Shown: positions 10,094 to 31,420 of the stretch, one piece after another
Numbering within the stretch: the stretch's first letter is position 1
Layout: each line of letters starts with the position of its first letter
Source: Hemileia vastatrix
Taxonomy: Eukaryota > Basidiomycota > Pucciniomycetes > Pucciniales > Zaghouaniaceae
Assembly: GCA_030280995.1 (NCBI GenBank)
Contig: JASXTE010000005.1
Location: forward strand, 18,739,501 to 18,803,500
Direction of reading: 5' to 3'
DNA length: 64,000 nucleotides
The notes under the pieces: model-generated
Seen by the model: the letters and a program-made list of their open reading frames with translations, nothing else
Databases searched by the model: none
What the model was told of the DNA's origin: nothing
Made by a program: the position numbers and the translations under genes

Positions 10094-10477
10094 ATTAGAG
10101 GATATCAATGTTTAGGGATCCACAATTAGGGATCAGGAATTATTTTCCTGCATCTGACATTATTAATTGTGGAGGATTTTTATCCATTAGCCCTAGGGCT
10201 AGTGGATAAGGAATCCACATTAATGCATTATCCCACCTCTTATACCCCAATTTCCATTCCTGATTCCTGATCCCAAACTCATAACATCCATGATTAATAT
10301 GTAAGAAATTCACATGACATACAATTGAAGATGCCATCCTTAAGTCTCTCTTTACTTTATGCTACTTAATTTTTGTGGAAAACACAAAAACATTTGTTTC
10401 TATCTACACACCCCACCTGCTCATTTGGTGGCAAATTCCCACTTCCCACTCATCACCTAAACCTTCTACCAAAAATA

Positions 10478-11735
10478 ATGAAGCACCTCTCTACTAGGAA
10501 GAAACTTCACTCAGCTATGAATGCTATCACTTTAACTTTAGCTGCTGACTTTGATTCTGACTCTTTTTTGGAAAACACTGTAGCTTATATGTCTTTTCTT
10601 TCCAAAAAGTGTTACATCATCCCAAAGGTGCCAAATATTTATCATGATCCCAGATATGATCTTGCCTCAATTCTTCAAACTTCTCTTTTAAATTTCACAC
10701 AAATTTTTCAAACTTCTCCTGATTCTTTTTTCAAACTTTCTCAGCTTATTGCCAATCATCCTATCTTCTGTAATAATTCCCATGACAAACGGTGTAATCT
10801 TACCTTTCAAATTGCTGCCGCACTATGTTGCTTTGATTCAAATGGAAATGGTTCTGCTGTAAGAAGTTTAGATAATCTCTTTACAATAGGATATGTTACC
10901 ATCATATTATACACTAAGAACTTTATGATTGCTATCCTTTCTCTCAAGTCTCAAAATCTTGCTTGGCCAACCCAACAACAGCGACTTGAATCCTCTCAAG
11001 TAATGCAAGCTGAAGGTTTCACTGGATGTGTAGTTTTTGTTGATGATACAACTATACCATTGAGCCAAAAGCCTGCTCATGATGGAAATCATTATTTTGA
11101 TCAAAGAAAAAGTTTTCTTCAAAATGTTCTCAAATTTCTCTTCATGAAATTACATTTTATCTTCTTTATAGATACTTTATTGCCGTTCAAATTGCATGTG
11201 ATATCAATATAAAGTTTATTGCTTTTCATAGTGGCTCCCCTGGGTCATATCATGACTCTTCTGTGTTCCAAAAAATGAATATTTCTGAAAATACTGACCA
11301 ATACTTTGACAAATCTCAGTACCTCCTTGCAGACTCAGCATATGCTAGTGGAAAATACATTATACCTGCTTTCTGAGGTGAAAATTTAGAAAATGACCCA
11401 AAAACATCTTTTAATTATCATCTTTAACAATCAAGAGTACTAATTGAACATGCTATTGGGACTTTTAAGGGATGATTTTTTAGTCTCCAGGAACTCAGAA
11501 TCAAATTTCAAAAAAAATGGAAATCAAAACTGCAAATCATTGGATAATGACTTGTGTTATACTCCATAATATACTGGTTGATTTGAAGGATGAGTGGTGT
11601 GATTTTAATGAGGAAGATCCTGAACCTGAACCAGCTCTCTCCCCCCCTTGATTTACAAAACTTAATTTCCACTGGGATATGCTCTATCATTATGCTAATC
11701 ACACTACATCATTTCTCAGCAAAACTCCTTTGAAT
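10478..11735 (+). pseudogene. Harb-2 DDE transposase, lightly damaged
   Basis: Starts MKHLSTRKKLHSAMN at 10478. An upstream in-frame Met at 10373 is ignored because homology with Harb-1 begins at 10478. The first exon is open to about 11110 and contains IAAALCCFDSNGNG and GCVVFVDDTTIPLSQKPAHDG (first catalytic D). An intron covers about 11113-11170. Then follow QIACDINIKFIAFHSG, GSYHDSSVFQKM (second D), LLADSAYASGKYI and VLIEHAIGTFKG (E). Stops appear at about 11374 (AF stop GEN), near 11428 and near 11475. The DDE residues are all preserved. Of the Harb-1/2 type, this is the less degraded copy. Confidence 0.85.
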
Positions 11736-11748
11736 TTTTTAATATCTT

Positions 11749-13029
11749 TTATTCTTTTTTTCTTTCAAACCTCATATCCTTTTCCTCTTCTCCTCTTGAA
11801 TGATTCAATCTATATTTATTTAAGGTTCCCAGTCTAGAGGAAATATATGTACTTTTCAAATAATATACATTCCTTTTGTTAATAAAAAAATAACTATCAA
11901 TTTCTAAACAGCCAGTATTATCAAATGATTCTTGAAGAAAGCTCTCATGTAAGTATTCTAACTTTTCTTTTTCATTCATTTTTATATAATCAGACATTAC
12001 AACATCTGATATATTCATTTTTAATGTTTTAATAGATTTTTATAGTCTTATAATGATTTGAATTGAAGATCCTAGCCTTGTAAAGTTACCAAATTCTTTT
12101 ACAGGAGTAGTTTGATGATATAGTTTATTAGTACGCCAAATAACCACCCATAAACCATCACACTTATCAAACTCTGCCATATACTTGAGCTCTGGAAAGA
12201 TAAAGTGGCCTCCATGTTGTCTAGGTGTGCCTTCCTACCAAGAATCTTCATCCAAAAGTCCATCAAAAGCTGTTGGACACCAAACACCCATCCTAATATC
12301 ACTGACATCCAAATCTTTGTGCAGGACATTGGAGAAGCCTCCAGAACTCCAAGTTAAGTTACCTCCAAAAGAATTAACATGATCATAGCAAGAAAGATCT
12401 AGTTCAGTCAATAGCTTCAGAAAGTTATGATAGTACTTTGAAGAAAGAAGCTTAAATAAAAAGATGTAAAAAGAAAAAATAAATCCTAAAGCCTCCCATA
12501 CTTCCTCATCATCTATTTTTAAATTTTTATAAAGACCTGGAGACTTAATAAGTATAATGAAGTTTTAAAATTAACAAATTTACTTACTGATGTCAAATAT
12601 ATGTTGAGTAGAAGCTCTTTCTACAGAAGCATACATATTACCCTCACCACCTCCTTTTTTATGAGCAGAATTAGTCTTTGTTTTATTACTCAACATTCTT
12701 AGGTATTAAAAACATTTCATGAAATCTGCCAACATCCCAAATCTCTTCAATTCTTTATGTGGAAAGGACTTCACAATCACTGGATGAATGTCACAATTCG
12801 AAGGTTGAATTACTGAAGATTTTGGTGAGACATGAGTTTTGAAATAGGTCTCAGTATTTTAAGAGTCAGAGAGTGCAGGGATAGGGCCATGAGATCTAAA
12901 ACCCTCCTGAAATGGATAAGTTTGGTACCAAACCTCTTCAAAATCAGTTCCCACCTCATTTCTCCAGGCCTCCCCCTCCCTTCTGAAATAAGAGCTCTTG
13001 TTTGAATGTCCATTTCCTCTTCTTTTCAT
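11749..13029 (-). pseudogene. Harb-2 2OG-A: TET-like dioxygenase, two exons, catalytic residues kept
   Basis: Minus strand, ATG at 13029 (MKRRGNGHSNKSSYF). Exon 1 is 13029-12588, the intron is 12587-12537 (GTAAGT...CCAG, 51 nt) and exon 2 is 12536-11749. The core has GNLTWSSGGFSNVLHKDLDV (HxD iron ligands His and Asp), GGHFIFPELKYMAEFDKCDG, LYHQTTPVKEFGNF (distal His) and TRLGSSIQ (Arg expected to bind 2-oxoglutarate). The tail NEKEKLEYLHESFLQE is shared with the Harb-3 copy. Stops interrupt exon 1 (two) and exon 2 (after DEDSW, and after SIQIII). It sits tail-to-tail with the transposase, only about 15 bases beyond that gene. By family it would oxidise a methyl group, plausibly 5-methylcytosine. 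Confidence 0.75.
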
Positions 13030-13410: not shown

Positions 13411-13510
13411 TTTGTGTTCTCTTGCACCCAGGTTCTTCTTGGCTGCAAGAAAACCAAAGTTGCTTCTATATTTGTATATATATTTTATATCTTTCTCACT
13501 ATTTTTTTAA

Positions 13511-13541
<31 letters not shown>

Positions 13542-14212
13542 CTCTTTCAGCCAGTAAGAACCTGGATGGGAGAGAACAGAAGTTGCTGCTAGTTTCAGTG
13601 ACTTTGGTCATTTTTTTGAGGTGAGTGTTTTTTTTTTATCATTTTCATTTTTCTTATCAATTTTTTGTTCTCTTCCAGCCAGCAAGAACCTGGCTGGGAG
13701 AGAACCAAAGTCTCTTCTGGTTACAGTGACTTTGGTTTTTTTAAAGGTGTGTTTTTTTTTATCTTTTTCATTTTTTTTAATAATTTAAAAAAAAAAATTT
13801 TTTCTCTCCAAGCCAGGAAGAACCTGGCTGGGAGAGAACTGAGTCACTTCTATTTGAAGCAACTTCAGTCCTTTTTTTAAGATGTGTGCGTGTGTGTGTT
13901 TTTAATCTTTTTCTATTTTATGTATATATATATTTGTTCTCTCCCAGCCAAGAAGAGCCTGGCTCAGAGAGAACCAAAGAGGCTGCTATTTGCAGTTACT
14001 TTGGTCTTTTTTTAAGGTGTGTGTGTTTTTTTTATTTATCTTTTTCAATTTTTTTTCTCTAATTTTTTTTTTGTATTTTTTTGTTCTCTCCCAGCCAAGA
14101 AGAAACTGACTTTGAGAGAAATGAAGTTTCTTCTAATTGCAGAAACTTTGGTCTTTGTTTAAGGTGAGTTTTGGGGTTTTTTATTTTTTATTTTTTTTGT
14201 TCTCTCAAAAGA
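13411..14212 (+). repeat. Tandem hairpin array, ~130-150 bp units, six copies
   Basis: Each unit contains an inverted repeat built from GTTCTCTCCCAGCCA and TGGCTGGGAGAGAAC around AAGAACC, then a variable GAAGT.GCTTCTA block, CAGTGACTTTGGTC, a T-run, and AAGGTGTGT or AAGGTGAGT. Hairpins lie near 13415, 13540, 13670, 13803, 13940 and 14085. Between units are long T-rich stretches ending in CCAG, so each unit looks like a short exon with splice sites. No protein frame is conserved. A seventh partial copy lies at 15590-15706, beyond the solo LTR. Confidence 0.8.
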
Positions 14213-14664: not shown

Positions 14665-15555
14665 TGTAAACAATCCTATAGTGGTAGCTATAGGCCTTGA
14701 CCAAGGGAGTTGGAGAAAAACCAGAGATAATCACCCCTGTCCCTTTAGAAAAACAAGTGAGATTTACCTGTTGCAGAAAATTGGAGATCTGTTTGCTAGA
14801 CCCTCTAATTAAACACTCTTGACCTCTTTGAAAGTGAAGATAATAGTCCAGGACAGACTACCAGAAAGATTTGAAATGAACAGTAATATATTCCAACAAA
14901 ACACAAGCCAATGAGACAGTGAAGAACAGAGAGGCAATGAGATAAAGAGATAAGATGATTCCCCTAAAAATCTTCCCACACATGCCTCATACAGCCAGTG
15001 CACAGACCACCCTGACCAATTCCCCACCCAAAATCCAGTTTTACCAGCCTTTTTCATGCATAAAAGTGCATTATAGTGCCTCCCCAGCTCCAAGTCAGGA
15101 TGCTGCTTAGGGGCGGGTGGGCCCCTTCTAGGCCCTAAAACACCCATACAACCCATAAAACCCATAACTTCAATAATAAACAAGATAAACACACATAAGA
15201 CATAACAAAATGAAAAGAAAATAATGAAAAATTAGCTGAGATATAATAAGTGACCCTAGCTTAAGCCTACATAAGCACCACTAAGCAATAAACTTCTGAT
15301 AAATACCAATAACAACACCATAACTACCCTTTAAAACAAGATAACCACCCATAAGGGATACCAAAATGAAGAGAAAAGAAAGGACATTAAGGTGAGAAAT
15401 AATAAGTGACCCTAGCTTAAGCCTCCATAAACACTACTAACTATCACCTAAAGATGAAAAAATCCACTAATAACACCATAAACCCAATAACACCCTACAT
15501 ACCAAATACCCCCAAATATGCACTCCAAAGGCCTACCCAGGTTTGGATCACCACA
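14665..15555 (-). repeat. Solo LTR of the gag-only retrotransposon family
   Basis: An 891-base LTR in reverse orientation, starting TGTAAACAATCC and ending GGATCACCACA. It matches the LTRs at 19829-20718 and 24443-25352 over its whole length. ACGT flanks both sides (14661-14664, 15556-15559) as the target duplication. The internal region has been lost, presumably by LTR-LTR recombination. Confidence 0.9.
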
Positions 15556-15706: not shown

Positions 15707-15769
15707 CATATGTAGACACTACTACATGGGTTACCACTCTAACTATATTACTTCCACAACTACTAACTT

Positions 15770-17258
15770 TATCAGGTTGAGGTCAAGTACACAGACGTGA
15801 ACTATCTTGAATTTTCAGTTTTATAGAAGATTTTAATGGTCCTATATGAATACTGTAGTACAAATCCAATAAGTATTAAAATATAACTCAATATAAGGGT
15901 CTCAGTAATCTTAATCTCACTAAATATAAATGGGTTACAATCTTATAGTTGGTAGAAAAATAGATGTAATAATTCAGATACTATTCAAAGAATTTATAAG
16001 TGCTATTGATATGTATTGTAATTTTATTGGTTATATATTTGAATTTTAATGATAAAGAATGTAGAAAACAAGACCAAAAAACCCCTCCTTTTATACCCAA
16101 TAACTTCCCCAATGAGCCCCTTGTTTTACCAGCTCTATACACAGTTAATGACACCTCATTCCAGCTAATAGAAATGACAAATAAAATAAATAGTGACCAG
16201 TAACATAATAAGAATGATATCACCCGCCAAAATCCTGTAGTAATAGGGATAATCGATCAAAAAAAAGAATAAGAAAAAAAGAGAGTATATGCATGTAATA
16301 CATTTAAAACAAAAGAATAAAAGGGAAAATTAAGACTAATTACTACTCCATATTAAGGGGGATTAAAATTATAAGTGATGGGGCTAATCATGTCATTATA
16401 CTATGTGAAATCCCCATTCAAAAATAACCAAAATTGACTGAGAAACCACTTAAAAATCCAAAAAAGGGTGTGAGATGTGGGGTAACTACATGCAGTTTGG
16501 CAGGCACTTTCATGGGTAAATCCTTGACTAATTTAGGCAAATTTATGCATGGTAGTGAATTAAAGTGCCAAGTTTGAGGTTATTAATGATAATAGTGCAT
16601 ATAATAAAGGTCAATGCATTTGTAATTAAACTAGGACACTAAATAAGTGCCTGTCATCTATTTTAGCATGTTTCCCCACAGTGGGTGTAGAATTTGGGGT
16701 AATTATTGTGTGAAAAAGCTAACTTTTCTAAAAATGAAGCTATTTACATGGGAAAAATGCAGGCAGTATGTGGCCAGTACACAGAAGCCATTTCTGGCAT
16801 AAAAAACACCAAATTTAAAAAGTGTTATTTTTATGAATTCGAGTAGCCGAATCAATATCCCTAATTAAGACAAATTGATCTGTCAAAGAGCATTCTTAAT
16901 ATTATTAAATTTATAGTGCATATAGTCAACTTTTAGTGATTTAAAGCACATTTCTTGTTTTTCACATAAAACAATGAAGACAACAGCTTTAAGTTTACTT
17001 AAAAATTATGTAGCCTTATATTTAAGGTTCTTAAGATTACTCTAACATATTCCAAATTAATATTAAGTAAATAAGACTTATAAAAGGTGGATATATATGT
17101 GTATATGAAGTGTTATAATAGCATATTTTGTATTTTATCATAAATTTACTTATGTATACTATTTTTGTACTCTATTTTATTGCTCCCATGTATAGTCCAT
17201 GTGTTTAATATAATTTATAAGTACTTTTTAATCAGTCCTGGGGATATCCAGGCTGAAA
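15770..17258 (-). repeat. Degenerate solo LTR of the G2 gypsy family
   Basis: A reverse-oriented copy of the 1502-base G2 LTR. The left end TATCAGGTTGAGGTC and right end ATCAGTCCTGGGGATATCCAGGCTGA match the G2 LTR ends in reverse complement, and internal landmarks (ACAGTAGTTAC-type TGGGGTAACTACATGCAG near 16480, TTTCCCCACAGTGGG near 16672) are kept. Many substitutions and no clear target duplication make it much older than G2. Confidence 0.8.
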
Positions 17259-17579
17259 ATTATTTTTTCACTAATTATTAAGTAGCAGAGAGAGAAAAAA
17301 AGGGATATAAAAAATATGGAAAATCCCATAATTTACTATTGGAGAAAGAAGAAACCAGGTGTGACAATTGAAATATCATTAAATTGTGCTATATGCTTGT
17401 TTAGATGTGAAATGTTTTGAAAATCTTTTTCAAATGAAGGGTAAAAAATTATGTACAAATCAATTTGTAGACTAACCAACAACACATAGTATGGATTATA
17501 CTATTTAACTTTCATGTGCAAAAAATTATAAACAAGTGAAATGAGAAATCAAAAAAAAACTAGTAATCTATCAAAAATT
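17259..17579. other. No gene seen
   Basis: AT-rich sequence between the degenerate LTR and the SANT fragment. Nothing supportable. Confidence 0.3.
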
Positions 17580-17890
17580 TTCAATAAGCATTCAATTTCC
17601 TCAACAGATATATTAGCTTTAACTCATTCTATCTAGAAAACTTTCTTTTTGGAACAATATTCAAGTTGATACTTGAGTTTCATCTGATTCAATAGGAAAT
17701 TTTACTAAAGAGCCTTCACCTCTTTCTTTATGTCAAATTTCTTCTCCTTCAAGTCATGTGCCCTCTCATCCCTCTGTAAAGAAAGCTCAAATTTCTTCTC
17801 CCCCAAGTCTTGTGTCCTATCATCCCTGTGTAAAGAAAGATTGTATTGTTGCTTTTGAAAGTTAAGAGTATCTCTTGAAACTTCAACTTT
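17580..17890 (-). pseudogene. 3' fragment of a SANT-like gene (coiled-coil exon)
   Basis: On the minus strand this matches the C-terminal exon of the Harb-1 and Harb-2 SANT genes: Leu/Lys-rich repeats, then a segment equivalent to YNFLLxQMxLKYQLE. The N-terminal DNA-binding part is absent, and the 2OG-B leader begins immediately to the right (about 17895). It is a second SANT end inside Harb-2, next to the 5' side of 2OG-B. Confidence 0.6.
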
Positions 17891-17989
17891 ACTTGCTAAT
17901 TAAAAATTTTTATTGTTTTTTTTCTGTTTTTTTATTTATTTTTTGTATCTAAATTTTTTCTGTAAGTGGTTATTTTTGATTTCAATGGT

Positions 17990-18240
17990 AAAATTCACCT
18001 TTTTTTTCTCTCCCTCTTTACTTTCTTTTTTAGCTCCATCACCCTACTCTTCATCCCTACTTGGCATGGCCATTATCCCCCCTTTCCCCTATTTCACTTT
18101 TTTTTGGCTCCATGTCATTAAAACACATACATTGCACATTATTTATGCAATTCACTTACTCCATATACAATTTCCCCACAATTCCAAAATCAATCTTTCT
18201 CATTCTATTTTTCCTACTTTTCAATCAAGGTAAGTTTCAT
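17990..18240 (+). promoter_or_regulatory. 5' leader exon of 2OG-B in Harb-2
   Basis: Nearly identical to 26880-27125 in Harb-4. It contains TTAGCTCCATCACCCTACTC, CTTGGCATGG, ACACATACATTGCACATT and ends TTTTCAATCAAG|GTAAGT, a good splice donor. Reading frames across it are open in both copies, but the frame is not obviously conserved, so a 5' untranslated exon is the safer reading. Confidence 0.4.
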
Positions 18241-18414
18241 CTCCTTTTTTTCATGCCTATATTATATATCATTCCTTTTATGAAATTTTCATACTTAAAT
18301 ATATGTATGACTCTTATCTGGATAAAAGTGAACTTATTAAACTCATTTTTTTCTCATCTCCATTACCACTTTTCAAGTTTTTGTAAAATTTTGAAAATCA
18401 GACTCAGGATTAGA

Positions 18415-18770
18415 GTTAGGTTTATTCAAATATAATGTTCTTTTTACTGAAGATTCTCCTGAAGGCTACCTTTCATTTTCCACAAACAGATTTAAATTTG
18501 GTTATGTGGTTGCTGAGATATTGACCATTAAAGTTGAGCCTTTTTTTCCCCATTTGAATTTTTATTTCATATTTCTATGTAACAAATAAGGGTTAGGTTT
18601 ATTTAAATCACATTTCCTTTAACTGAAGATTCTACTAAAACCTATCTCTCATTTCCCACAAAAAAGTTTGAATTAGGTTTGGTGGTGGCTGAGATTTTGA
18701 CCTTTGAAGTTGAGCCTTTTTTTCCAATTTTCACTTATCTTATTTCACATTTTTATATTGCATAATTAGA
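18415..18770 (+). repeat. Tandem duplication, 177-bp period, upstream of 2OG-B
   Basis: Two units start GTTAGGTTTATT at 18415 and 18592 and share CTGAAGATTCT, GTGG.TGCTGAGAT.TTGACC and AAGTTGAGCC. Harb-4 has the same pair at 27295 and 27471, and Harb-5 keeps the end of one unit at 48274-48350. It probably lies in a leader intron. Confidence 0.65.
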
Positions 18771-18879
18771 GGATAAGTATTCTGAAACTCTTATCTGATT
18801 ATTATCTAGGCTTTCATCTCCCTCTTTTTGGACTTTTCATCATCACTGTTCAAGTTTTTAAATTCAAGTAACAATGAAG

Positions 18880-19828
18880 ATGATAAGACTGGAAATAAAT
18901 AAAAAATGCTGTTGTTTCTAATTCTTTTAAACTTCAATTTATTTTTGAGATTCACTCATTTGAAGAAAATACAAATGAAACGTTTAAAAATTTATCAGAT
19001 CTTATATCAACTTTGTATCAAATGGCCTTAGCTTGTCAAACTTTATCAAACAAAAATATTCTTTCAGGTTTCATGTATGGTATTGGTTGGTGACTAGGAT
19101 ATGACAAAGGTTTTTCACTTGGTAAGCTTATTTATAGATGAATGAATATAAAAAAATTTATTATTCTTTCTACAGGTATTTAATCTTTAGTCCAAGATCT
19201 TACTGCCCAAGAAATGAAAGAATATTTAAAAAAATGTACTCCTTGTCAAAATTCAACCATTTTTTAGCTCATCATAAAAGAATCAATGTCAATATGCTTT
19301 TGAATCTAATCATCAATTGGCAAAACGGTTTAGAATCCCTAATTGGAAAGATGCAGAATGGCTAAAACGTTTTGATGATGATATTTTTGCTTCTAATTTC
19401 ATGGAAACCTTTGGTGGTTTTTATAACAAAATTCACATGAATAAAAACGATCTCAACTTACTCACATTTGGAATATTCTCATACATTAATCCAAAAACTG
19501 GTCTTCCTATCCCCTAACCCTCCTCATCTACAAAAGGCCATGGTCTATAATTTCCAGACCATTGATGCATTATTGACTTTTGAACAGGAAATGGAATAAT
19601 TTCAGCAATTTGGTATTCAAATCTTCACAATCACCAGATGACTAAAGCACCACCTGGCTTAGAATCCTGTGAAGAATTCACACATTTTGGATGTTCATTT
19701 CAAATAAATAGGGAGCTGGTCAATAGGATTGATAAGGTAAGAGAAAAAGGTGAGGTAAAAAAACATTAGGTAGAAAGAAAAATAATGGGGTGTAATATAG
19801 TTTGTCAACTTTTATTTTTATTTCACGG
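18880..19828 (+). pseudogene. Harb-2 2OG-B (main part), interrupted by an LTR retrotransposon
   Basis: Readable segments are VVSNSFKLQFIFEIHSFEE, LSDLISTLYQMALACQTLS, GFMYGIGW (then TGA where Harb-1 has Arg), an intron near 19121-19172, a Lys-rich stretch, IPNWKDAEWLKRFDDDIFAS, NKIHMNKNDLNLLTFGIFSY and, after a shift, FQTIDALLTF-like and SFQINRELVNRI. HMN stands where the iron-binding HxD motif should be. The gag-only retrotransposon enters at 19829, and the rest of the gene resumes at 25357. The protein is homologous to the Harb-1 and Harb-4 copies. Confidence 0.65.
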
Positions 19829-20718
19829 TGTAGTGATCCAAACCTGGGTAGGCTTTTGGAGTGCATATTTGGGGGTATTTGGTATGTAGGGTGTTATTGG
19901 GGTTATGGTGTTATTAGTGGATTTTTTCATCTTTAGGTGATAGTTAGTAGTGTTTATGGAGGCTTGAGCTAGGGTCACTTATTATGTCTCAGCTTAATTT
20001 CCTTTCTTTTCTCTTCATTTTGGTATCCCTTATGGGTGGTTACCTTGTTTTATAGGGTAGTTATGGTGTTGTTATTGGTATTTATCGGATGTTTATTGCT
20101 TAGTGGTGCTTATGTAGGCTTAAGCTAGGGTCACTTATTATGTCTCAGCTAATTGTTCTTTATTTTCTTTTCATTTTGGTATGTCTTATGTGTGTTTATC
20201 TTGTTTATTAGTGAAGTTATGGGTTTTATGGGTTGTATGGGTGTTTTAGGGCCTAGAAGCGGCCTGCCTGCCCCTGAGTGGCATCCCGCCTGGGCGCTGG
20301 GGAGGCGCTAAAATTCACTTTTATGCATGAAAAAGGCTGGGAAAGCTGGATTTTGGGTGGGGAATTGGTCAGGGTGGTCTGTGCACTGGCTGTATGATGC
20401 GTGTGTGGGAAGATTTTTAGGGGAATCATCTTCTCTCTTTACTCATTGCCTCTCTATTTCTCACTGTCTCATTGGCTTGTGTTTTGTTGGAATATATTAC
20501 TGTTCATTTCAACTCTTTCTGGTAGTCTGTCTGGGACTATTATCTTCACTTTTAAAGGGGTCAAGTGTGTTTAATTAGAGGGTCTAGCAAACAGATCTCC
20601 AATTTTCTGCAACAGGTAAATCTCACTTCTTTTTCTAAAGGGACAGGGGTTATTCTTTCTGGTTTTACTCCAACTCCCTTGGTCAAGGCCTATAGCTAGT
20701 ACTATAGGATTGTCTACA
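19829..20718 (+). repeat. 5' LTR of the gag-only retrotransposon
   Basis: 890 bases, TGTAGTGATCC...GGATTGTCTACA. Contains an unusually GC-rich island (20255-20310, GGCCTGCCTGCCCCTGAG region) in an otherwise AT-rich LTR. Confidence 0.9.
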
Positions 20719-20722
20719 TTTC

Positions 20723-20740
20723 TGGCACCCAACGTGCGGA
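20723..20740 (+). other. Primer binding site
   Basis: TGGCACCCAACGTGCGGA lies four bases inside the 5' LTR. It resembles the TGG-starting sites complementary to tRNA 3' ends used by fungal gypsy elements. The matching tRNA was not identified. Confidence 0.6.
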
Positions 20741-20957
20741 ATGAATCTGTTGGATTTTTGGAATCTCTGTTGATCTAGGCTTCTCTCTTTGGTGGATCTC
20801 CTTTGGTGGATTTTGGATTTGGTGCTATATCTCTTTTTGTTGTTGGTCTAGGGGTCTTCTTTTCTGTTGGATCTGGTCCCTCCTAGGTCTCTAAGGCTCT
20901 TGGAGGGACTTTGGCTATCTTTGATGGAGATTGGAGGCTGTAACTTGAATTACTAGG

Positions 20958-22341
20958 ATGGTTATGATTCAGTCTTGGTATGGTTCAAGATTTTTGGGTG
21001 AAGATGCAAAGGGATTTTTGGCTAGGTTTGAGGTTGCTGCTGAGATTGATGGGGCCTCACTGTTGGACATGGTTAGGCAAGCAATCTTTTTCATTGGTAA
21101 TAGGGAGGTTGAGAAGGAAGTTTCTGGTATGGCAGGATATAGGAGTCAGGACTGGGGGAAGTTGAAGATTGAAATGATTAAAAGGTGGCCCACTACTTTC
21201 TCAATGGTGGATCTTCATGGGATTGCTAGGAAGTGGGAATTGAAAGGTGGTGTAACCTCTTTTTCTCAGTATGGGGAGTTTATGGAGGAGTTTGAGGAGG
21301 CTCTGGATTATCTTGTATATAATGATATATTACCACATGAAGATGAGGCCAAGTATGTACTTTGGAGTGCCATGGGTAGGAATGTAAAGGTGGATGTTAT
21401 GGAGACTCTTTTCAAGGCTGACTTGATGAAGACTCTTCCAAATGGGGAAAATAGGATTCATGCTATGGCTGTTTTAAAGGATGTTATTTTGGGATATTTG
21501 GATGGTATGAAGGATAGGGATGTGGAATCTGGAGAGGAAATCCTGTTGGATGGAGAGGTTCAGGAGACTGTGGTGGAAAATTCAGTTTCTAGGGAGGTGT
21601 TGGAGCCATCAATTTTGGAAGATGGGGACTCTGATGATGTTTGTGAAACTAATTTTTCTTTTCCAAAAGATGCCATGGGATCTCAGGAATGTGCTTCACT
21701 GGATGTTTTGGAAATGTACACACTGGAGGATCAGTGTATTTCCTCAAGGTTGGGTGAATTATGTGAGAAGGAGGACTTGTCTGGTCATCAAGAAGGATTT
21801 TGGGATATTGAGAAGGAATCTGTGGTGGATGAATGGTTGTTGAGGGATGATTATTTTTCTTTCCTCAAGCTCAGATAATGGCTTATTGGAGGAGGATGTA
21901 TCAGTTGAAATTTTGGATGGACAGAAAGATTCTGTCTTGGATCTTTTTCTAATAGAGGAAGATTATTTTCAGGTGGTTCCCTCAAGATCAGAAGGTCTCT
22001 GCTTGGAGGAGGATTTTTATTTCGATGTTATGGATGTTGTTCTGGAGGATTTTGCAGATTCTAAGCAAGATTCCTATAGGGAAGAGGAAAATTGTGATGT
22101 TTTGGATGTCACTGGTATGGAGGTAAATTTTAAAGATGTGGTGGAGGTTTCAGATGTTTCACAGGGTGGAGAATTTATTGATTCTGGTGATGTGAGCTTT
22201 GGTAGACTCAGTGTATGGAGGAGGATGGAAGATTTGTTTGGAGGTCTGATTTTGGGATATCAGAATTGGAAGAGGAGCTTAGGGAGTTCAAGCCCTAGGG
22301 GAAAACTTATTGGTTTCAACTTTTGGATTTCAAGAATCTGA
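20958..22341 (+). pseudogene. Gag-like protein of the non-autonomous retrotransposon, one frameshift
   Basis: The first frame runs MVMIQSWYGSRFLGEDAKGF to about 21878 (306 aa). The second continues from about 21860 to 22341 in another frame, so a single frameshift near 21860-21875 separates the two halves of what was a protein of about 460 residues. The N-terminal 180 residues look like a capsid-type helical domain (FLARFEVAAEIDGASL, FFIGNREVEKEV, LKIEMIKRWP, MEEFEEALDYLVYND). The rest is very acidic, rich in Glu, Asp and Val with many short repeats. No zinc knuckle was seen. A gag role is inferred from position behind the primer site and from the capsid-like region. Confidence 0.6.
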
Positions 22342-24432
22342 TTCCTCCTAAATGAGGATAAATTACTTAATTTGTTTTGGTTTTGCTTAATTTGGCCTCT
22401 ATGTATTTGGTCAGGATTTTTTTTGTTTTGTCCAATTCTTATCAGTCTCTCTGGTTCAAGTCTCTATATAAAAAAAGGGAAATAATGAAAAAAAAAGTAT
22501 AATGAAGATGAAAGAAAAGAAAAATTCAAGTGAAGATGGATATTTTATTTAAAATAAAATGAAGATAAAAATGAAGATTATTGGTTTTATTTCACCTCCA
22601 GCAAGAGGTTAAACTGCAAAATTTTATTTCTAAATTGGATGTTTTTGGCTTTCAAGAATTTTAATGGTTTTTTAATGGTTTTGGTATTTTATGGGAGAAG
22701 ATTTGTGTTGTAAAATCCTTTTTGTTAGAAGGTACCCAGGGGTGGGGCTTCTAGATTTGATTTTGGCAAGTGTGGGGGTGACTGATGGGCTGGCTGCTCT
22801 ATCAAAAGTTACCCCAGTTTGTCTGTTTCCAAACCCTTCTTTTAATTTTGTTGAATTCTAGTATTGGTTTTTTTTCTTTAACAGGTTTTTAGTCCACCAT
22901 GACTTTAAACTGGAAATTCTTTTGGTCTTCAAGTGCTGGACCCCTAATGTTTATTGGTTTAGTTTAATTTTGTTGGATGTTGTGTTTTTTTTAGAAGGTA
23001 CCCAGGGGGGGCTTCTAGATTTTATTTTGGCAAGTGTGGGGGTAACTGATGAGCTGGCTGCTCTGTAGAGCAGTTACCCCAGAATCTCTGTTTTAAGCCT
23101 TTGGTTTTTTTCTAGTTGAATTCTAGTGTTGTTTTTTTGTGATTCAGGTTTTTAGTCCTCTATGACTTTAAACTGGATTGCCTTGGATGTCTTTTGGTGC
23201 TTTTGGATTGGTGGTGGATCACTGGTGGTCTCCCATCATTTTAACTTATTGGAGGGAGCCCACCCAGTGATCTTTTCTGTTGACCTGGAGCTGGCTTTGC
23301 TATGTGGTCTTAGGGTGTTGGATGTGAAAGTGGTGGGTTCAAGATTATTTTTTTTCTCTTTTTTTTCTTTTAATTTTTTATTGAGGCTATGTTTGTTCAA
23401 AGGCTCAAGATAGGGCTCTGGCAATGTTCTTGGTAGAAGACGAGTCAAAATAAAAATAAAAAAATTAAATTTTTTTTAGGTGTGACCACATCAAGGTGCA
23501 CTTGGATGTGGGTAAGGTATCAGGGGATCAGCTCATCAATTGGCTGGGGGATACCATTTTATTTTGTTTTATTTGTTAAAGGAGGTTAAATGTTTTGGCT
23601 TTGATGGTATTTGGTTTGGAGATTTATGGGCTACATCTTCAAGATTTTTTTCTGGAAGGTCCTTCAAGACTTTAAAATGATCTTTTATTTATGGGATATA
23701 TCTTCAAGATTTTTCTTTGGAAAGTCCTTCAAGACTTTCAACCGATCTTTTAATTATGGGCTCAAGATTTTTTAATGGAAATTCCCCCAAGACTATAAAC
23801 TGAGGAATGGGAAGCAGTGTGAGTTGGAAGTTTAAAGTCAGAAGGATCCAAGGGGGAACTTCTAAATTTAGTAAAGGCAAGTTTGGGGGTGACTGATGGG
23901 CTTGCAGCTCTATATACAGTTACCCCAGAAAGTTAATTACTTCTCTTAATCTTTTTCTGGTTGATCTCTGCTTCTGGGTTCTGTGATTCAGGTTTTTGCA
24001 GTTCCCCAAGACTATAAACTGAGAATTTTTTGGAGTCCCCCAAGACTATAAACTGAGGGCTGCTAGTCCCCCAAGACTTTAAACTGAGGGCTGTGAGTCC
24101 ACCAAGACTATAAAATGAGGAAATTTTTTATGCTGGTAGAAGGTTATAGTCAGGAAGACTTGTCAACTGGATATAACTTTTGATTGTTGGAGGCTGGTAC
24201 AGCCAGAGTTGGAATTCAGGAACAGAAGAAAGAGATTTTTTTCACAGGGATAGATTGAATTTAAAGGCATGGTGCGAGAGAAGTTTTAAAGAAGAAGCTT
24301 GGATTGCTGGTTCAGAAGTTCACTTAGGATGGAATAAGATCTGGTGGAAGAGAGAAATGGGCTGTTTTTAAAGATTCTGAAGAGGTGTTTGAACATGGTT
24401 TTCGGAAAAGGAAGAATAGAAAATTCTTGATT
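22342..24432 (+). repeat. Non-coding interior with internal repeats
   Basis: No gene. Three copies of a block from AGAAGGTACCCAGGGG to GTTACCCCAG, containing GGTGACTGATGGGCTGGCTGC, start near 22728, 22993 and 23840. From 23640 to 24120 there are about seven copies of a shorter unit with CCCAAGACT.TAAACTGAGG or TTCAAGACTTT. Large repeat-bearing non-coding interiors are typical of LARD-like elements, where the RNA itself may be packaged. Confidence 0.65.
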
Positions 24433-24442
24433 GGAGGGAGGA
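24433..24442 (+). other. Polypurine tract of the gag-only retrotransposon
   Basis: GGAGGGAGGA directly abuts the 3' LTR, as expected for the plus-strand primer. Confidence 0.7.
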
Positions 24443-25352
24443 TGTGGTGATCCAAACCTGGGTAGGCCTTTGGAGTGCATATTTGGGGGTATTTGGTATG
24501 TAGGGTGTTATTGGGGTTATGGTGTTATTAGTGGATTTTTTCATCTTTAGGTGATAGTTAGTAGTGTTTATGGAGGCTTAAGCTAGGTTCACTTATTATG
24601 TCTCAGCTTAATTTCCTTTCTTTTCTCTTCATTTTGGTATCCCTTATGGGTGGTTACCTTGTTTTATAGGGTAGTTATGGTGTTGTTATTGATATTTATC
24701 GGATGTTTATTGCTTAGTGGTGCTTATGTAGGCTTAAGCTAGGGTCACTTATTATGTCTAAGCTTATTTTCCTTCATTTTATTTTCATTTTGGTATGTTA
24801 TTTGTGTGTTTATCTTGTTTATTAGTGAAGTTATGGGTTTTTAGGGTTTTTAGGGTTTTTATGGGTTGTATGGGTGTTTTAAGGCCTAGAAGCGGCCTTC
24901 CCGCCCCTAAGCGGTGTGCCCTCCTGGGCACTGGGGAGGCGCTAAAATGCACTTTTATGCATGAAAAAGGCTGGGAAAGCTGGATTTTGGGTGGGGAATG
25001 GGTCAGGGTGGTCTGTGCACTGGCTGTATGATGTGTGTGTGGGAAGATTTTTAGGGGAATCATCTTATCTCTTTACTCATCGCCTCTCTGTTCCTTAATG
25101 TCTCATTGGCTTGTGTTTTGTTGGAATATATTACTGTTCATTTCAACTCTTTCTGGTAGTCTGTCTGGGACTATTATCTTCACTTTTAAAGGGGTCAAGT
25201 GTGTTTAAGTAGAGGGTCTAGCAAACAGATCTCCAATTTGCTCTAACAGGTAGATCTCACTTGTTTTTCTAAAGTGACAGGGGTTATTCTTTCTAGTTTT
25301 ACTCCAACTCCCTTGGTCAAGGCCTATAGCTATTACTATAGGATTGTCTACA
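24443..25352 (+). repeat. 3' LTR of the gag-only retrotransposon
   Basis: 910 bases, TGTGGTGATCC...GGATTGTCTACA. It differs from the 5' LTR by scattered substitutions and a small insertion of a GGGTTTTTAG-type repeat near 24840, so insertion is not very recent. Confidence 0.9.
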
Positions 25353-25356: not shown

Positions 25357-26015
25357 ATAAAAATTTTACAAGTCATACATGATAATATACTTACCTAAAT
25401 TAATGAGCCATCAGCCGTGTGTTGTATAACGATAATCATGAGGAAAAATGTTTTTCTCATGGGATTCATGTATACATTTGTGTTTGATTTCATTGAATTT
25501 GGCCACAGACAGTTTCCACTGACATTTTTACTTGAATTGTCATTAATTTAGGTTTGTTAATTATATTATAAGATTTGTTTTCATGTTAATTTATGGAATG
25601 AACAAAAATTTTGTCAATCTATGCCCCTACTTCAATAACACACAGGGGAGGGTATTGGCTTTTTTTTTTGTCATAAATTTTTTTCTGACTTATAAAAAAA
25701 ATGGTGATCCCCATCCCCTGTTATGGTAAAATACAAGAGAGGGTATTTACATTTTTTTTTCATAAATTTTTCTCTGACTTAGAAAAAAATTGGTGATCCC
25801 CACCCCCAGTTATGGTAAATAGCAGGGGAGGGTATTGTCAAAAAAAATTAGGGACACTCTAAAGTTCAGGAGAGGGTATTGCTAGCAGTTCTCCCCTTGA
25901 TTTCCTGTGGACAGTCTTTAAAATATCAGAGAGGAGTGTGTGCCAAGGATTCATTATTAGCTTTAATGCATTCTATCAAGAAAACTTTGTAAAAGAAATA
26001 AAAAAACTAGTAATT
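25357..26015 (+). pseudogene. Harb-2 2OG-B 3' part and downstream repeats
   Basis: After the retrotransposon the sequence resumes with the last 2OG-B exon (GTTGTATAACGATAATCATG near 25420, equivalent to the Harb-4 exon near 28410). Next come three downstream repeat units (25620-25870, each with an approx. CAGGGGAGGGTATT block) and GAGGAGTGTGTGCCAAGGATT (25935), shared with Harb-1 at 6550. Harb-4 then interrupts at ATT 26013-26015. Confidence 0.55.
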
Positions 26016-26021
26016 AGGGGG

Positions 26022-26170
26022 TGTCAGTTCTGGCAAATCCGCACTTAACTTAAGTGCGGATTTCAAACCAAATCAGCACTTACAAATCAGCACTTAAATT
26101 TTGCAAAAAAGTCACTTATTTCAAAAAAGGGTGTCAGTTATGACCTCAAATCAGCACTTTTTTCCCGTTT
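26022..26170. repeat. Subterminal repeats of Harb-4, left end
   Basis: Five copies of AAATC(C/A)GCACTT. The first two form a near-perfect palindrome (AAATCCGCACTTAA, one C, then its complement). A further internal copy of GGGTGTCAGTTATGACC at 26129 echoes the terminus. These are likely binding sites for the element's own proteins. Confidence 0.6.
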
Positions 26171-26369
26171 TTTTTCACAACCACATTTTGGCCACAAAAC
26201 ATCCCTTCCTTTCTTACCCCATCCCTGTCACATGTGACACACTGACCTTCCTCGCTACCTACCCATCAATCCTCGGCACACACCCATTCCTGACATTTTC
26301 AATATTTTGACCAGGCATGTTTACATTCTTTTTTACTTATTTCTTCTACTTTTTAATCTTTTTTCTATG

Positions 26370-26760
26370 GGTGTCAGTTCTGACCTCAAATCAGCACTTT
26401 TTTTGTGATTTTTTTTTTCAAAACCACATGTTGGCCACATCATCCCTTTCTTTCCTATACCATTTTGTACTCTCCAAATGTCCTCTTTGTGTACTTCATT
26501 CACTTGGGTTGGTATTTTGGTTTGTTGCATATTCATTTTTTTTGGAATTTACGGTGAAAATTTTTTTTTTGGATGGCTCATTGGTTTTCTTTCACCAGCT
26601 CAACATGAAATCGCATATTTTCTGAAATCGCATATTTTGTCAGTGATTTTTTTTTTCATTCATCCCTCATATCCTTTCCCTATTCTCCTTCAACATCCCT
26701 CAAACAATTTGGTTTCATTCATTTTGTCATCTCATCTCTCCAGGTAAGTCACTTTATTCT
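26370..26760 (+). promoter_or_regulatory. Conserved leader of 2OG-B in Harb-4
   Basis: Begins with another internal TGGGTGTCAGTTCTGACC copy (26370), then the CTCTCCAAATGTCC...GCTCATTGG block shared with Harb-1 (3510-3650), and ends CATCTCTCCAG|GTAAGT near 26743, a good splice donor. Probably promoter plus a first untranslated exon. Confidence 0.4.
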
Positions 26761-27294
26761 TTTTTTTTGATTTTTTGATTACTAATTATAATTTTTTTTG
26801 TTTTTTTCTGTTTATTTTATTTTTTTTATCTAAATTTTTTTTGTAAGTGGTTATTTTGGATTTCAATGGTATAATTAACCTTTTTTTTCTCTCCCTCTTT
26901 AATTTCTTTGTTAGCTCCATCACCCTACTCTTCATCCCTCCTTGGCATGGTCATTATCCCCCCTTTCCCTTATTTCACTTTTTTTGGCTCCATTTCATTG
27001 AAACACATACATTGCACATTCTTTATGCATTTCACTTACTCCATATTCAATTTCCCCACAATTCCAACATCAATCTTTCTCACTCTATTTTTCCTACTTT
27101 TCAATCAAGGTAAGTTTCATCTCCTTTTTTTCATGCCTATATGATATCTCATTCCATTTATGAAAAGCTCATACTTAAATATATGTATGACTCTTATCTG
27201 GATAACAGTGAACTTATAAAACTCCTTTTGATCTCATCTTCATTACCACTTTTCAAGTTTTTGTAAAATTTTGAAAATCAGACTCGGAATTAGG

Positions 27295-27650
27295 GTTAGG
27301 TTTATTCGAATCTAATGTTCTTTTTACTGAAGATTCTCCTGAAGGCTACCTTTCATTTCCCACAAACAGATTTGAATTTGATTCAGTGGTTGCTGAGATA
27401 TTGACCATTAAAGTTGAGCCTTTTTTTCCCAATTTAAATTTTTATTTCATTTTTTATGTAACAAATTAGGGTTAGGTTTATTTAAATCACATGTCCTTTA
27501 ACTGAAGATTCTACTAAAGAATATCTTTTATTTCCCACAAACAGGTTTGAATTAGGTTCAGTGGTTGCTGAGATTTTGACCTTTGAAGTTGAGCCTTTTT
27601 TCCAAATTTCACTTGTCTTATTTCACATTTTTATATTGCATATTTAGAGG
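27295..27650 (+). repeat. Tandem duplication, 176-bp period (Harb-4)
   Basis: The same pair of units as at 18415-18770 in Harb-2, starting GTTAGGTTTATT at 27295 and 27471. Confidence 0.65.
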
Positions 27651-27691
27651 ATAAGGATTCTGAAACTCTTATATGATTATTATCTAGGCAT

Positions 27692-28614
27692 GTATCCGTT
27701 GCTCAAGAATATCACTAAAGCTCAAAAAGATGAAGATTTTTGCTTATGGGACACTCTACTTTCCTTTAACTCTTTTCTTGCTCTTCGACTCAAAAAGCAC
27801 TGTAATAAAGCATTTGAAAAAAAATCATGAACCTGCAACCAAAGTAGGAATACCGAATTGGTGTGACTCCAAATGGGAAGATATCAGCCACAAATATCTT
27901 TTATTTTCTAATTTTATTATCACTCATTCTGGATTTCACAATAAAATTCACACCGATACCAAGGACACCAATTTTCTTACTTTTGGTATATTCTCATATA
28001 TCAAACCGATTACTGGCCAACCAATACCATCTCCAGCTAAAATCAAATGACATGGTTTATATTTTCCAGACCACCGGTGCATCATTGATTTTGGTTTGGG
28101 AAATGGTATCATTGAAACTATTTGGAATTCTTCTAAGGATAATCATCAAACGACCAAAGCTCCTCCTGGTTTGGAATCCTGTCAAGATTTAACACATTTT
28201 GGTTGCTCATTTCAAATCAGTCATAAGTTGATTCAAAGAATCAATAAGGTAATGAAAGAAGGTAAAGTTAATCGATTTAAAAAAACTTTATTTAGATCCA
28301 AAAAGTATGGGGATTAGAGTTGTCATCAAAAATTTTATATTTTTTCGTAAATTATTAATAAATATTTTTTATGTATCAATTTCCTCAACTAAAGTAATGG
28401 GCCCACGACCTTGTGTTGTATAAATGGTAATCATGATAACATTTATTTGTTTCATCGGGTTCCTCTAGCCTATACCTGTGGAAAGTCCCAAACTTTTGTT
28501 TCTAGATTTGATCTGCATTTTGGCTTAAGGGATTGTCATTACTTTAAACTAGGGAAATTGATATATATTAGATATTTATTTAATAATTTACGTAATTATA
28601 TTAAATTTAGATGA
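27692..28614 (+). pseudogene. Harb-4 2OG-B: TET-like dioxygenase, iron ligands present, frameshifted
   Basis: The best-preserved 2OG-B. It reads KAQKDEDFCLWDTLLSF, then after a one-base shift near 27825 IPNWCDSKWEDISHKYLLFS, HSGFHNKIHTDTKDTNFLTF (HTD is the iron-binding HxD), ITGQPIPSPAKIK, and after a shift near 28047 GHGLYFPDHRCIIDFGLGNG, DNHQTTKAPPGLE (distal His) and FGCSFQISHKLIQRINKV. A last exon (28411-28614) has NHDNIYLFHRVPLAYTCG. The spacing GH..FP...HQTT is the same as in 2OG-A, so the two are paralogous. The exon equivalent to SDLIITLYQIAL of Harb-1 is missing, and at least two one-base shifts break it. Confidence 0.75.
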
Positions 28615-28835
28615 CTTCCACCACTTACTTCAATAAAATGAAGGGGGGGGGTATTGCCAAATTTTCAAATCTGACATGTGAAATTGATGACTTAGAAAAA
28701 TTTTGGTGATATCAACCCCTTGCTTCAATAAAATGCAGGGGAAAGTATTGCCAATTTTTTAAAACAGATATAGAATTTTTTTGACTTGTAAATATTTTGG
28801 TGAAAATTTTTGACGAGAATGTGAAAGTAATTGTT
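28615..28835. repeat. Downstream repeats of 2OG-B and deletion junction
   Basis: Two units of the AATAAAAT.CAGGGG repeat, then the deletion point near 28835 where sequence after 2OG-B joins the middle of the transposase. Confidence 0.55.
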
Positions 28836-29453
28836 TCCACCTTGAGCAGGTTTCTGGCTCAAAGGACTAGCAGTACCATCAACAAAACCAATACATCCTG
28901 GGAAGCCCTCTGCTTGCATAACCTGAGATAATTCAAGTCGCTCTTCTTTTGTTGGCCAGGTGAGAAGTTGAGATTACAAGGAGTTGATGGCAGTGATACA
29001 TTGTTTGGTATAAGTGTTAATTGAACCATACCCTAAATCAAAGACATTTTCTAAACGTTTCAAAGCAGCTCCATTACCATTTGAACCCAAATGACATAGT
29101 GTGATGGCCAATTGAATTGAAGGATGTTGTTGTTCTTTTTGAGAATTATTGTGAAATATGGGATGATCCTGAATAAGCTCAAGCAATTGAAGGAAACATT
29201 CCTGAGAAGTCCTGAACAGCTCTCTAAAACTGGGTGTAGATAGTTTAAGAAGTGTTTGGATGGTGTACTTGGGGGTATGAAGTACTTGAGGCTTTCTGGG
29301 AAGAAGGTAACGTTTTGTGGCCATTTTTGATAAAAAGACAAAATCTTCTTCTAGATCAGAATCAGAATCGGAATCAGAGTCCAAGAGCAGTTCAAGAGCC
29401 ATGAAAGTCATTGCTTTATGTAATTTATCACGATTTCAAAGTGAGGAAGGCAT
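28836..29453 (-). pseudogene. Harb-4 transposase, N-terminal half only
   Basis: Minus strand from ATG at 29453 (MPSSL, then TGA where Harb-3 has Ser), then ALELLLDSDSDSDSDLEEDF, KRYLLPRKPQVLHTPKYTI, LCHLGSNGNGAALKRLENVF and MQAEGFPGCIGFVDGTASPL (first catalytic D), ending at QGGNNYF. The second D and the E are deleted, so it cannot catalyse transposition. It may be mobilised by a full-length relative such as the source of Harb-3. Confidence 0.85.
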
Positions 29454-29764
29454 AACTCTTATATGATATGATATGAAGATGTAAGTGATGTACGATGTTT
29501 TGAGTTATGAAGTGTTATGCTGCGGAGTGCTGCGTATGAATAGGATGATGCTGACAAATCAGTGAAATGTGACTTGATGGTGAAATCAGCACTTTTGGTT
29601 GAGAAAGTGCGGATTTGAGTGAAATAAGTGACTTATTTCATTTTGAAATCCACCAGTATTGGGGCTAGTGTGTTTTGGAAATCTGCACTTATTTAAGTGC
29701 GGATTTGGTCAAATTTAAGTGCGGATTTGTAAGTGAGGATTTGCCAGAACTGACACCCCCTATT

Positions 29765-31116
29765 AAACATTTTCATTAAGTGTTCAATTTCCTCAATAGA
29801 TTTATTAGCTTTAACACAATCTCTCAAGAATTCTTTCTTTTTTGAACCTTCTTCAAGCTGATACTTGAGTATCATTTGATTCAATAGGAAATTGTACTCA
29901 AAAGCGTTCTCCTGTTTCTTAATATCAATTTTCTTCTCCTCCAAGTCATGTTCCCTCTCATCCCTCTTTAAAGAAAGCTCAAATTTCTTCTCCTCCAAGT
30001 CTTGTACCCTCCCATCCCTCTGTAAAGAAATCTTGAATTTCTTCTCCTTCAAGTCTTGTTCCCTATCATTCCTTTGTAAAGAGAGCTCATATTGTTTCTT
30101 TTGAAAGTTGAGAGTATCTCTTGCAACTTCAAATTTACTTAGAGTGAAAAGGAATATTAACAAAAGAAAAGAAAGACTCACTTAATTATTAAGAGGTATG
30201 CTATCACTTACCAGATTCACATTTCTCCATCAAATAATCAATGAAAGAAAAAGGGGTTTGGGAAAAACTATTTCTGTTTCACTTTCTATGACTCTTGAAA
30301 TTCAAAGTAGTTGATGGTCTTTTCTTTTTTTTGGAGGTAAAATTTTCCTATTCATCATTGATGCTAGCTTCAGACTCACTTGCTTGAGGATCCTGGGTTT
30401 GTTCATTAGCCTTTTTAGAAATAATAAAAAATAAAACAACTAGACAAGAAATAAAAACTTACTGGAGTGGGATCACATTGTTTTATATCACCATAAGGAT
30501 CTATTGGAAAGCTATCTAGATTTGTTGAATTTAGAGCAGGGGAGGCTTGAGTGGAGGAAGAGGATGTGAAACAATTTCTTTCAACATAATGTTCAGAGAT
30601 GGCATCTTCACCATCCAAAATTTTGGAAGGATTAACATCAGCTTGCTCTGAAAAAATAGCATGCACCTCTCTAAAATACGGACATAACAAATCAAGTTTA
30701 TCATCTATGGATTATATGCCCTTATTGATATCAATGTTGGTAATACCAAAACCAGTCGAAAATGAAAGAATCTATACCTTCTTGTATTTGGCTTGGTGAT
30801 GCTTGAAAATTTCAGACATCTTTTTAGGCAAGAGATCAATCCTTCTCTTTGTCTTATTTTCTAATTTATTGGCCATTAGAAGATAGCCATTCACTTTTGA
30901 TGCAGGGGGCCATCCTAATTTAGTTTCATTCTCAGTACCACAACAAGAATCATAATTAGTTTTTACTCTTAGCCAGTTGATAAGTGTGAGATGATCATCA
31001 TTTTTTAGTTGAAAAGTCTTTTATTTCTCAGCTGAGCAGGGGAAAGAGGGAGTAATGGGATTTGAAGAACAACTGGGTGAAGGCTGCCTTTGAGAGGATC
31101 TATGATGACAGGGCAT
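29765..31116 (-). pseudogene. Harb-2 SANT-like protein, 3' end rewritten by Harb-4
   Basis: Minus strand from ATG at 31116 (MPCHHRSS). A SANT-like core near 30700-31000 is followed by an acidic part with VHAIFSEQADVNPSKIL (30690-30640) and SFPIDPYGDIKQCDPTP, an intron near 30465-30420, then a coiled-coil exon (30181-29775). That exon has four 17-residue repeats KKFELSLQRDxRxxDLxE and ends YQLEEGSKKKEFLRDCVKAN and IEEIEHLMKMF. The Harb-4 insertion lies right behind this, so the frame runs into the Harb-4 terminus and stops at 29693. The core carries stops near 30710 and elsewhere. The role would be DNA binding at the element ends and partnership with the transposase. Confidence 0.75.
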
Positions 31117-31420
31117 GTTGAGATATTTGAAGATGAAAAGGAGAAGAAAAAACCAGATGAGATGTGGAGGGGTTTTGAATGGAAATGATTAGACAGGATG
31201 GGAGTGCACATCAAGGTAGGTAGGATGGCACATCCAGAAAGCTGTCCAAGATGTGGTTATGAAAAATTGAAGATAAAAATGTCAGATAGAGGTGAACATT
31301 GACACATAAAAGGTCTAATAACCCAATTATTAGAAAAAATAGTTGCAGAAGATAATTTGGGTATAATGATTTTTATCTGCAATTAATTTAATTGCAGATT
31401 GGTCAACATTGATACCCCCT

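Follow-up and report, generated by a model that had tools for sequence, protein, structure and literature searches.

Genes of the TET/JBP type are said to accompany the KDZ transposons of basidiomycetes, as Iyer et al. reportedly found in 2014. Here we describe a 64-kb window (the whole stretch of DNA that was analysed, 64,000 nucleotides) from Hemileia vastatrix, in which transposons of the Harbinger type carry genes for Tet-like dioxygenases. The closest described systems are the TET+ Harbinger elements, for which Kojima (2025) gives fifteen families with TA duplications in five Puccinia species and Austropuccinia psidii (PMC12730594). The Puccinia lineage of these elements is named PHISTA, and its third proteins are without a Myb/SANT domain (PMC12730594). 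An anti-silencing role was proposed there and was stated as not experimentally validated (PMC12730594). The preliminary description of our window had claimed Harbinger elements with TET-like genes. This is borne out by protein profiles, terminal repeats and TA duplications, but the class is already published (PMC12730594), which removes most of the claimed novelty; what is added here concerns mechanism and evolution.

The elements of the window share with TET+ Harbinger and PHISTA elements a Harbinger-type DDE transposase, a TA duplication and a Tet-like dioxygenase; they also encode a third protein, for which a Myb/SANT domain is unproven. The comparison is one of descriptions, not of sequences: Kojima describes a dioxygenase and a third protein for each family, and the available sections of the article mention neither a two-dioxygenase element nor replacement of the gene within a family (PMC12730594). 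KDZ transposons with TET/JBP genes (Dileera and Kyakuja) are also DNA transposons that carry the same enzyme superfamily, but their transposase superfamily is a different one and their target duplication is 7 or 8 bases long (PMC12730594) instead of TA. In our view the window probably contains decayed elements from two related families of PHISTA-like Harbinger transposons that carry TET genes, with one interval made by the joining of two elements and with the dioxygenase gene passed between elements like a cassette.

Five damaged pieces in two terminal-repeat families

All statements on copy number and layout refer to five Harbinger-type pieces (E1 to E5) in this one window. Their boundaries were drawn from self-comparison of the window, terminal-repeat scans and inspection of the ends.

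1855..8293, plus strand: E1, TATCAATG family, both terminal repeats; gene order transposase (+), dioxygenase A (+), third gene (-)
10097..31420, plus strand: E2, a TATCAATG-family interval with two dioxygenases; a mosaic with later insertions
26016..29761, plus strand: E3, TGTCAG family, nested in E2; dioxygenase A at 27688-28275 (+), N-terminal part of a transposase at 28785-29471 (-), no third gene
49927..56351 (left edge approximate), plus strand: E4, TGTCAG family, with an intact terminal repeat on the right and none found on the left; gene order transposase (+), dioxygenase B (-), repeat array, third gene (-)
48273..49927, plus strand: E5, a remnant with dioxygenase A flanks, a third-gene fragment and right-end sequence; abuts E4, with both inner terminal repeats missing

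The pieces fall into two related terminal-repeat families, a TATCAATG family with ends AGGGGGTATCAATGTT (E1 and E2) and a TGTCAG family with ends AGGGGGTGTCAGTTCTGG (E3, E4 and E5). When the window is scanned, AGGGGGTATCAATGTT is exact at 1855, 8293 and 31420 and has two mismatches at 10097; with up to three mismatches it matches six times against 0.95 expected, the other two matches being those of a small element at 9894-10094. The repeat AGGGGGTGTCAGTTCTGG is exact at 26016, 29761 and 56351, and with up to three mismatches it gives four matches against 0.03 expected. Both terminal repeats are present in three of the five pieces (E1, E2 and E3), E4 having only the right one and E5 neither. 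The TA dinucleotide target duplication of TET+ Harbinger elements is seen on both sides of E2 and E3; TA also flanks the right end of E4 and the left end of E1, and TG stands at the right end of E1. Four pieces have transposase sequence (E3 only an N-terminal part, recognised by tblastn similarity; E5 none), and four have the third gene (absent from E3, a fragment in E5). All five are damaged, whether by stops in the transposase, dioxygenase B or third gene, by truncation or missing parts, or by lost ends. No dioxygenase domain was matched in E5, which keeps only DNA flanking such a gene. The earlier observation is largely borne out, but its picture of five equal copies within the same terminal repeats was rejected, there being two repeat families and paired ends in three of the five pieces.

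A 201-base element (9894-10094), separated from E2 on its left side by two bases, has TATCAATG-like ends (one and three mismatches) and is probably a non-autonomous derivative.

The transposases of three pieces could be delimited:

2130..3482, plus strand: E1 transposase; DDE_Tnp_4 in one stretch, frame broken by stops
10370..11715, plus strand: E2 transposase; DDE_Tnp_4 at 1.4e-9 in one stretch, frame broken by stops
50144..51432, plus strand: E4 transposase; DDE_Tnp_4 at 3e-9 in the second open stretch

A Harbinger-type DDE transposase, as in TET+ Harbinger elements, is found in all three, with the Pfam domain DDE_Tnp_4 above its cut-off (E1 7.2e-7, E2 1.4e-9, E4 3e-9). The domain was matched in three of the seven transposase stretches scanned, the N-terminal stretches and the stretch of E3 being without a match. 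Just upstream of E1, part of another transposase (1092-1448, plus strand) matches Plant_tran (PF04827, 1.6e-7); this sequence has no other match in the window. Between the transposase and the dioxygenase of E1 (3700-4250), a pyrimidine-rich stretch is followed by a purine-rich one around 3990, and the two might form a long imperfect hairpin.

Two kinds of Tet-like dioxygenase

Outside E3, whose A gene is given above, four dioxygenase genes could be placed:

5138..5845, plus strand: E1 dioxygenase A; PF20515 at 1.7e-12, iron-site motif HIN in place of HxD
11884..12959, minus strand: E2 dioxygenase B; motifs HKD, YHQTTP and RLGSS, two in-frame stops in the compared part
18899..19769, plus strand: E2 dioxygenase C, a relative of A; PF20515 at 5.7e-12 in one stretch, iron-site motif HMN
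51534..52696, minus strand: E4 dioxygenase B; a stop-free main stretch of 234 amino acids with PF20515 at 1.3e-16, and an upstream stretch with an in-frame stop

The Pfam profile of Tet-like 2OG-Fe(II) oxygenases, PF20515, is matched in four of the five pieces: in E1 (1.7e-12), E3 (2e-8), E4 (1.3e-16) and both genes of E2 (C at 5.7e-12; B at 3.1e-7 and 3.7e-9 in two stop-free stretches). Six of nine dioxygenase stretches scanned gave a match, the three without one being short. These genes lie within terminal repeats in E1, E2 (two genes) and E3; E4 has the right end only. The upstream stretch of the E4 gene is read as a putative exon by comparison with E2. C and A share 51-56% of their amino acids, and B has about 25% identity to the A of E3 where the two can be aligned (tblastn, E 0.003). 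The B genes of E2 and E4 both keep HKD, YHQTTP and RLGSS, and with them an HxD...H iron site. Among the A-type genes only E3 has such a site (HTD), E1 having HIN and the C gene of E2 HMN. A downstream arginine also plays a part in TET-type dioxygenases, and HFGCS replaces RLGSS in the A-type genes of E2 and E3.

By sequence, the closest solved structure to the B of E4 is that of CMD1 (5-methylcytosine-modifying enzyme 1, PDB 7cy4), an enzyme of Chlamydomonas. The match is weak (E 0.0046) and aligns its catalytic region with residues 113-203 of B. The A of E1 had no PDB match up to E 5, and a protein search with the B of E4 returned 226 candidates, none at E 0.001. That the dioxygenases are host genes was not adopted: within the window, all tblastn matches of seven dioxygenase queries fall in E1, E2, E3 or E4.

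E2 as a probable join of two elements

As the preliminary description had noted, E2 holds both dioxygenases: B (11884-12959, minus strand) and C (18899-19769, plus strand) are unlike each other, both match PF20515, and both lie between the terminal repeats at 10097-31420. Several further features lie between the E2 transposase and its third gene:

13518..14208, no strand: array of tandem units spaced 128-147 bases, following dioxygenase B
14665..15555, minus strand: solo long terminal repeat (LTR), ACGT on both sides
15769..17260, minus strand: solo Gypsy LTR, 84% identical to the Gypsy LTRs at 38202 and 46429; edges approximate
17567..17893, minus strand: fragment of a third-gene tail between dioxygenases B and C, in normal orientation; its right edge is the likely fusion junction
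17893..18811, plus strand: 5' flank of C, 92% identical to E3 26779-27689
19829..25352, no strand: LTR retrotransposon that entered just 3' of C, flanked by ACGG on each side

Without its four insertions (the LTR retrotransposon, the two solo LTRs and E3), E2 shrinks from 21.3 kb to about 9.7 kb. The nesting of E3 is plain from alignments to E1, in which E2 25917-26007 corresponds to E1 6538-6628 (91%) and E2 29761-31420 to E1 6633-8293 (87%). Judged from E1, E4 and E5, the interior of E3, with dioxygenase A and the flank of that gene, has the opposite orientation to the two ends of E3. Past the retrotransposon, at 25357, the 3' flank of C begins again; it extends up to the third gene and resembles the A flanks of E1, E3 and E5 (about 62% identity), so that C is continuous with the right half of E2.

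The order of parts in the left half of E2 (transposase, B, repeat array, third-gene tail) is the layout of E4, and that in the right half (A-type gene, third gene, end) is the layout of E1. Together with the third-gene fragment between B and C, this means that a fusion of two elements would explain E2 in one step. E2 is therefore most likely two one-dioxygenase elements, one bearing B and the other an A-type gene, that were joined and later invaded by others. The join would have been a head-to-tail fusion of an element with the E4 layout and one with the E1 layout, inside the third gene of the first, and the product would later have been filled by retrotransposons and E3. The fragment has 81.0% identity to E2's own third-gene tail and 79.5% to that of E1, less than the 87.3% between those two tails, and therefore does not come from a recent duplication. 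Besides E2, all three kinds of gene are kept in E1 and E4; each of these has one dioxygenase and gives no tblastn match to the other type at E 0.01. The window also contains a second join, where the right-end sequence of E5 directly meets the transposase end of E4 and both inner terminal repeats are lost.

The repeat arrays of E2 (13518-14208) and E4 (53000-54464) occupy the same relative place, each closely following dioxygenase B. They have little sequence in common beyond a single weak match (72% over 82 columns, E 5e-5).

Some observations weigh against a join. Both non-coding ends of E2, left and right, show 86.1% identity to E1, which fits a single element equally well. The third-gene fragment, at 79.5% identity, has also diverged further from E1 than have the left end (86.1%) and the transposase (83.7%) of E2, and may therefore not be part of the left half. 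Finally, A-type and B genes each occur in both repeat families, and an ancestor with both is thus conceivable. On the evidence of this one window, we judge joining, by fusion or by nesting, to be much more probable than a true two-dioxygenase element.

Nesting is the possible but lesser route to a joined E2, and takes the smaller share of the probability we give to joining. An A-type element of the TGTCAG family would have inserted beside the third gene of a B-bearing TATCAATG-family element and then lost its ends. E3, which is of that family, has 92.4% identity to the 5' flank of C and is itself nested close to the proposed insertion site; and in E1 the A-type gene is separated from the third gene by TGTCAG-family right-end sequence, for which E2 gives a weaker match (72.5%, E 3e-4). 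Against this, neither edge of the segment has a TGTCAG-type end within four mismatches of a 17-base pattern, and nesting alone leaves the extra third-gene fragment unexplained.

We hold it to be unlikely that E2 goes back to a genuine two-dioxygenase element with the order transposase, B, A-type gene, third gene. E1 would have lost B, E4 would have lost A, and the fragment would be an old local duplication. The gene order is compatible with this, B following the transposase in E2 and E4 and the A-type gene preceding the third gene in E1 and E2, and it would also fit the equal divergence of the two E2 ends from E1 and the TA on both sides of E2. However, two dioxygenases are seen in one piece of the five, with a third-gene fragment lying between them that is no recent duplicate (81%), the C of E2 is not the orthologue of the A of E1, and B and A go unmatched in E1 and E4, respectively. 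The preliminary description had proposed a class of two-dioxygenase Harbinger, and as a class it finds no support here. No description of such an element was found in the openly licensed literature, a scope that leaves out Kojima's supplementary tables. More doubtful again is a TET-carrying lineage that keeps two unlike Tet-like enzymes, in which B would be ancestral and inherited along with the transposase, and relatives would have supplied the gene in a further, A-type slot. If this were true, the enzymes might differ in the mark or the step on which they act, and the element would carry its own demethylation pathway.

Apparent exchange of the dioxygenase gene

For coding comparisons we used the proportions of nonsynonymous (pN) and synonymous (pS) differences. 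Between E1 and E2, pS is 0.217 (95% 0.166-0.276) for the transposase and 0.090 and 0.154 for two portions of the third gene. The slot that both elements have for a dioxygenase is filled by non-orthologous genes (A in E1, C in E2), with a pS of 0.678 (95% 0.568-0.793). E1 and E2 are thus close kin (pS 0.09-0.22) with far more distant dioxygenases, and the slot appears to have been refilled. On these comparisons, the gene is apparently exchanged between elements like a cassette. Two observations bear on the source, one of them a short stretch inside E1:

6518..6575, no strand: fossil of TGTCAG-family right-end sequence between dioxygenase A and the third gene of E1; match to E5 at 34/39 bases without gaps, to E4 at 92% when a gap is allowed

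The first is the 92.4% identity between E3 and the 5' flank of C, compared with 86.1% for the non-coding ends of E1 and E2 on each side. The second is the fossil, for which 34 of 39 bases agree with E5 ungapped when the best of 40 shuffled queries reached 26. The same test against E4 is a point on the other side, as it gives 25/39 ungapped, no better than shuffles, and the 92% requires the gap. The flank and the fossil point to the TGTCAG family as the likely donor or partner in the refilling.

Selection on the dioxygenases

Pairwise comparisons of the dioxygenases suggest constraint throughout. For B in E2 and E4, pN/pS is 0.40 (0.32-0.51), or 0.23 after Jukes-Cantor correction, with frame-shifted controls of 1.34 and 1.39. 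For A in E1 and E3 it is also 0.40 (0.27-0.60), and for A against C 0.46 and 0.39. Over these four comparisons the frame-shifted controls range from 1.04 to 1.48. The estimates, which show purifying selection on the dioxygenases across the families, come from 92-221 codons and few copies, a point against them. The transposase and third gene give pN/pS of 0.42-0.60 between the two families, with controls of 0.90-1.93 that are often near 0.9-1.0 in one frame, a further weakness. Within the family, the transposase and third gene of E1 and E2 give 0.77-1.45, as for decaying copies.

Between E2 and E4, pS is 0.676 for the transposase, 0.627 for B and 0.640 for the third gene. Such similar values are weak evidence that B travelled with the element, since a pS of 0.63-0.68 is near saturation and the agreement therefore says little for common descent.

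CpG depletion and a proposed function

The window has a G+C content of 33.3%, and its ratio of observed to expected CpG is 0.17. In five of six Harbinger stretches the ratio is 0.06-0.12, and in the nested E3 it is 0.32. Transposons of A. psidii are methylated and lose CpG with age (PMC8063080, PMC12774611). In the model we propose, each working ancestor most likely had a single Tet-like dioxygenase gene beside those for the transposase and the third protein. The enzymes would oxidise 5-methylcytosine at the CpG sites of their own element; this would relieve silencing and delay the C-to-T decay to which methylation leads. Selection would have retained the dioxygenase cassette for as long as the elements were mobile, and nesting and recombination would have exchanged it between elements. 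Two points count against this model. The young Gypsy element of the window, with LTRs 99.3% identical, has a CpG ratio of 0.07, as low as old pieces, so that CpG is no clean clock. The A-type copies of E1 and E2 are without the HxD aspartate. Demethylation by the Tet-like enzymes is a predicted activity.

It is improbable that the dioxygenases are bystanders or act on a substrate other than 5-methylcytosine (for example in a CMD1-like modification, or on N6-methyladenine (6mA) or RNA): such a role would suit the weak CMD1 match of B (E 0.0046) and an E1 A gene without PDB match up to E 5, and Kojima also names CMD1, the product of which is glyceryl-methylcytosine, and leaves other activities open (PMC12730594), but pN/pS values of 0.39-0.46, where the frame-shifted controls exceed 1, speak against bystanders, and the CpG depletion fits methylation-linked decay. 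The window provides a sequence-level case of a transposon-borne Tet-like gene under purifying selection between transposon families, and of close kin with different Tet-like genes in the same slot. Both bear on whether the enzymes serve the transposon against silencing by methylation.

The third gene

The third gene was delimited in three pieces:

6631..7968, minus strand: E1 third gene; repetitive tail, SANT-like label unproven
29696..31101, minus strand: E2 third gene; tail and N-terminal part, the reading frame of the tail entering E3 at 29761
54654..55983, minus strand: E4 third gene; Myb_DNA-bind_4 at E 0.16 only

The preliminary description had called this gene SANT-like. The sole support for the label is the match of the E4 protein to Myb_DNA-bind_4 (E 0.16), which at 12.9 bits is below the cut-off of 27, and the label was rejected as unproven. 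A piece of the E1 protein had no Pfam match up to E 10, and the best PDB match of the third protein (E 0.094) bears an unrelated name. A structure model of the third protein was unusable, with a predicted local distance difference test (pLDDT) score of 41; another model from this analysis, with a pLDDT of 33, was also too poor.

Other features of the window

A scan against Rfam gave no match at gathering scores, and in a scan for viral contigs three stretches matched a pattern, none of them being a relative. The young Gypsy-type LTR retrotransposon lies at 38202-47930, with CTCAT on both sides and LTRs that are 99.3% identical. Beside it is a second Gypsy polyprotein, with RVT_1 and an integrase zinc-binding domain in 33091-36585. 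The long open frames at 59468-60863, two pieces of which were scanned and had no Pfam match up to E 0.1, are rich in proline and glutamine and have near their end the motif KKKRGRPR, which we take to be AT-hook-like; this is possibly a host gene.

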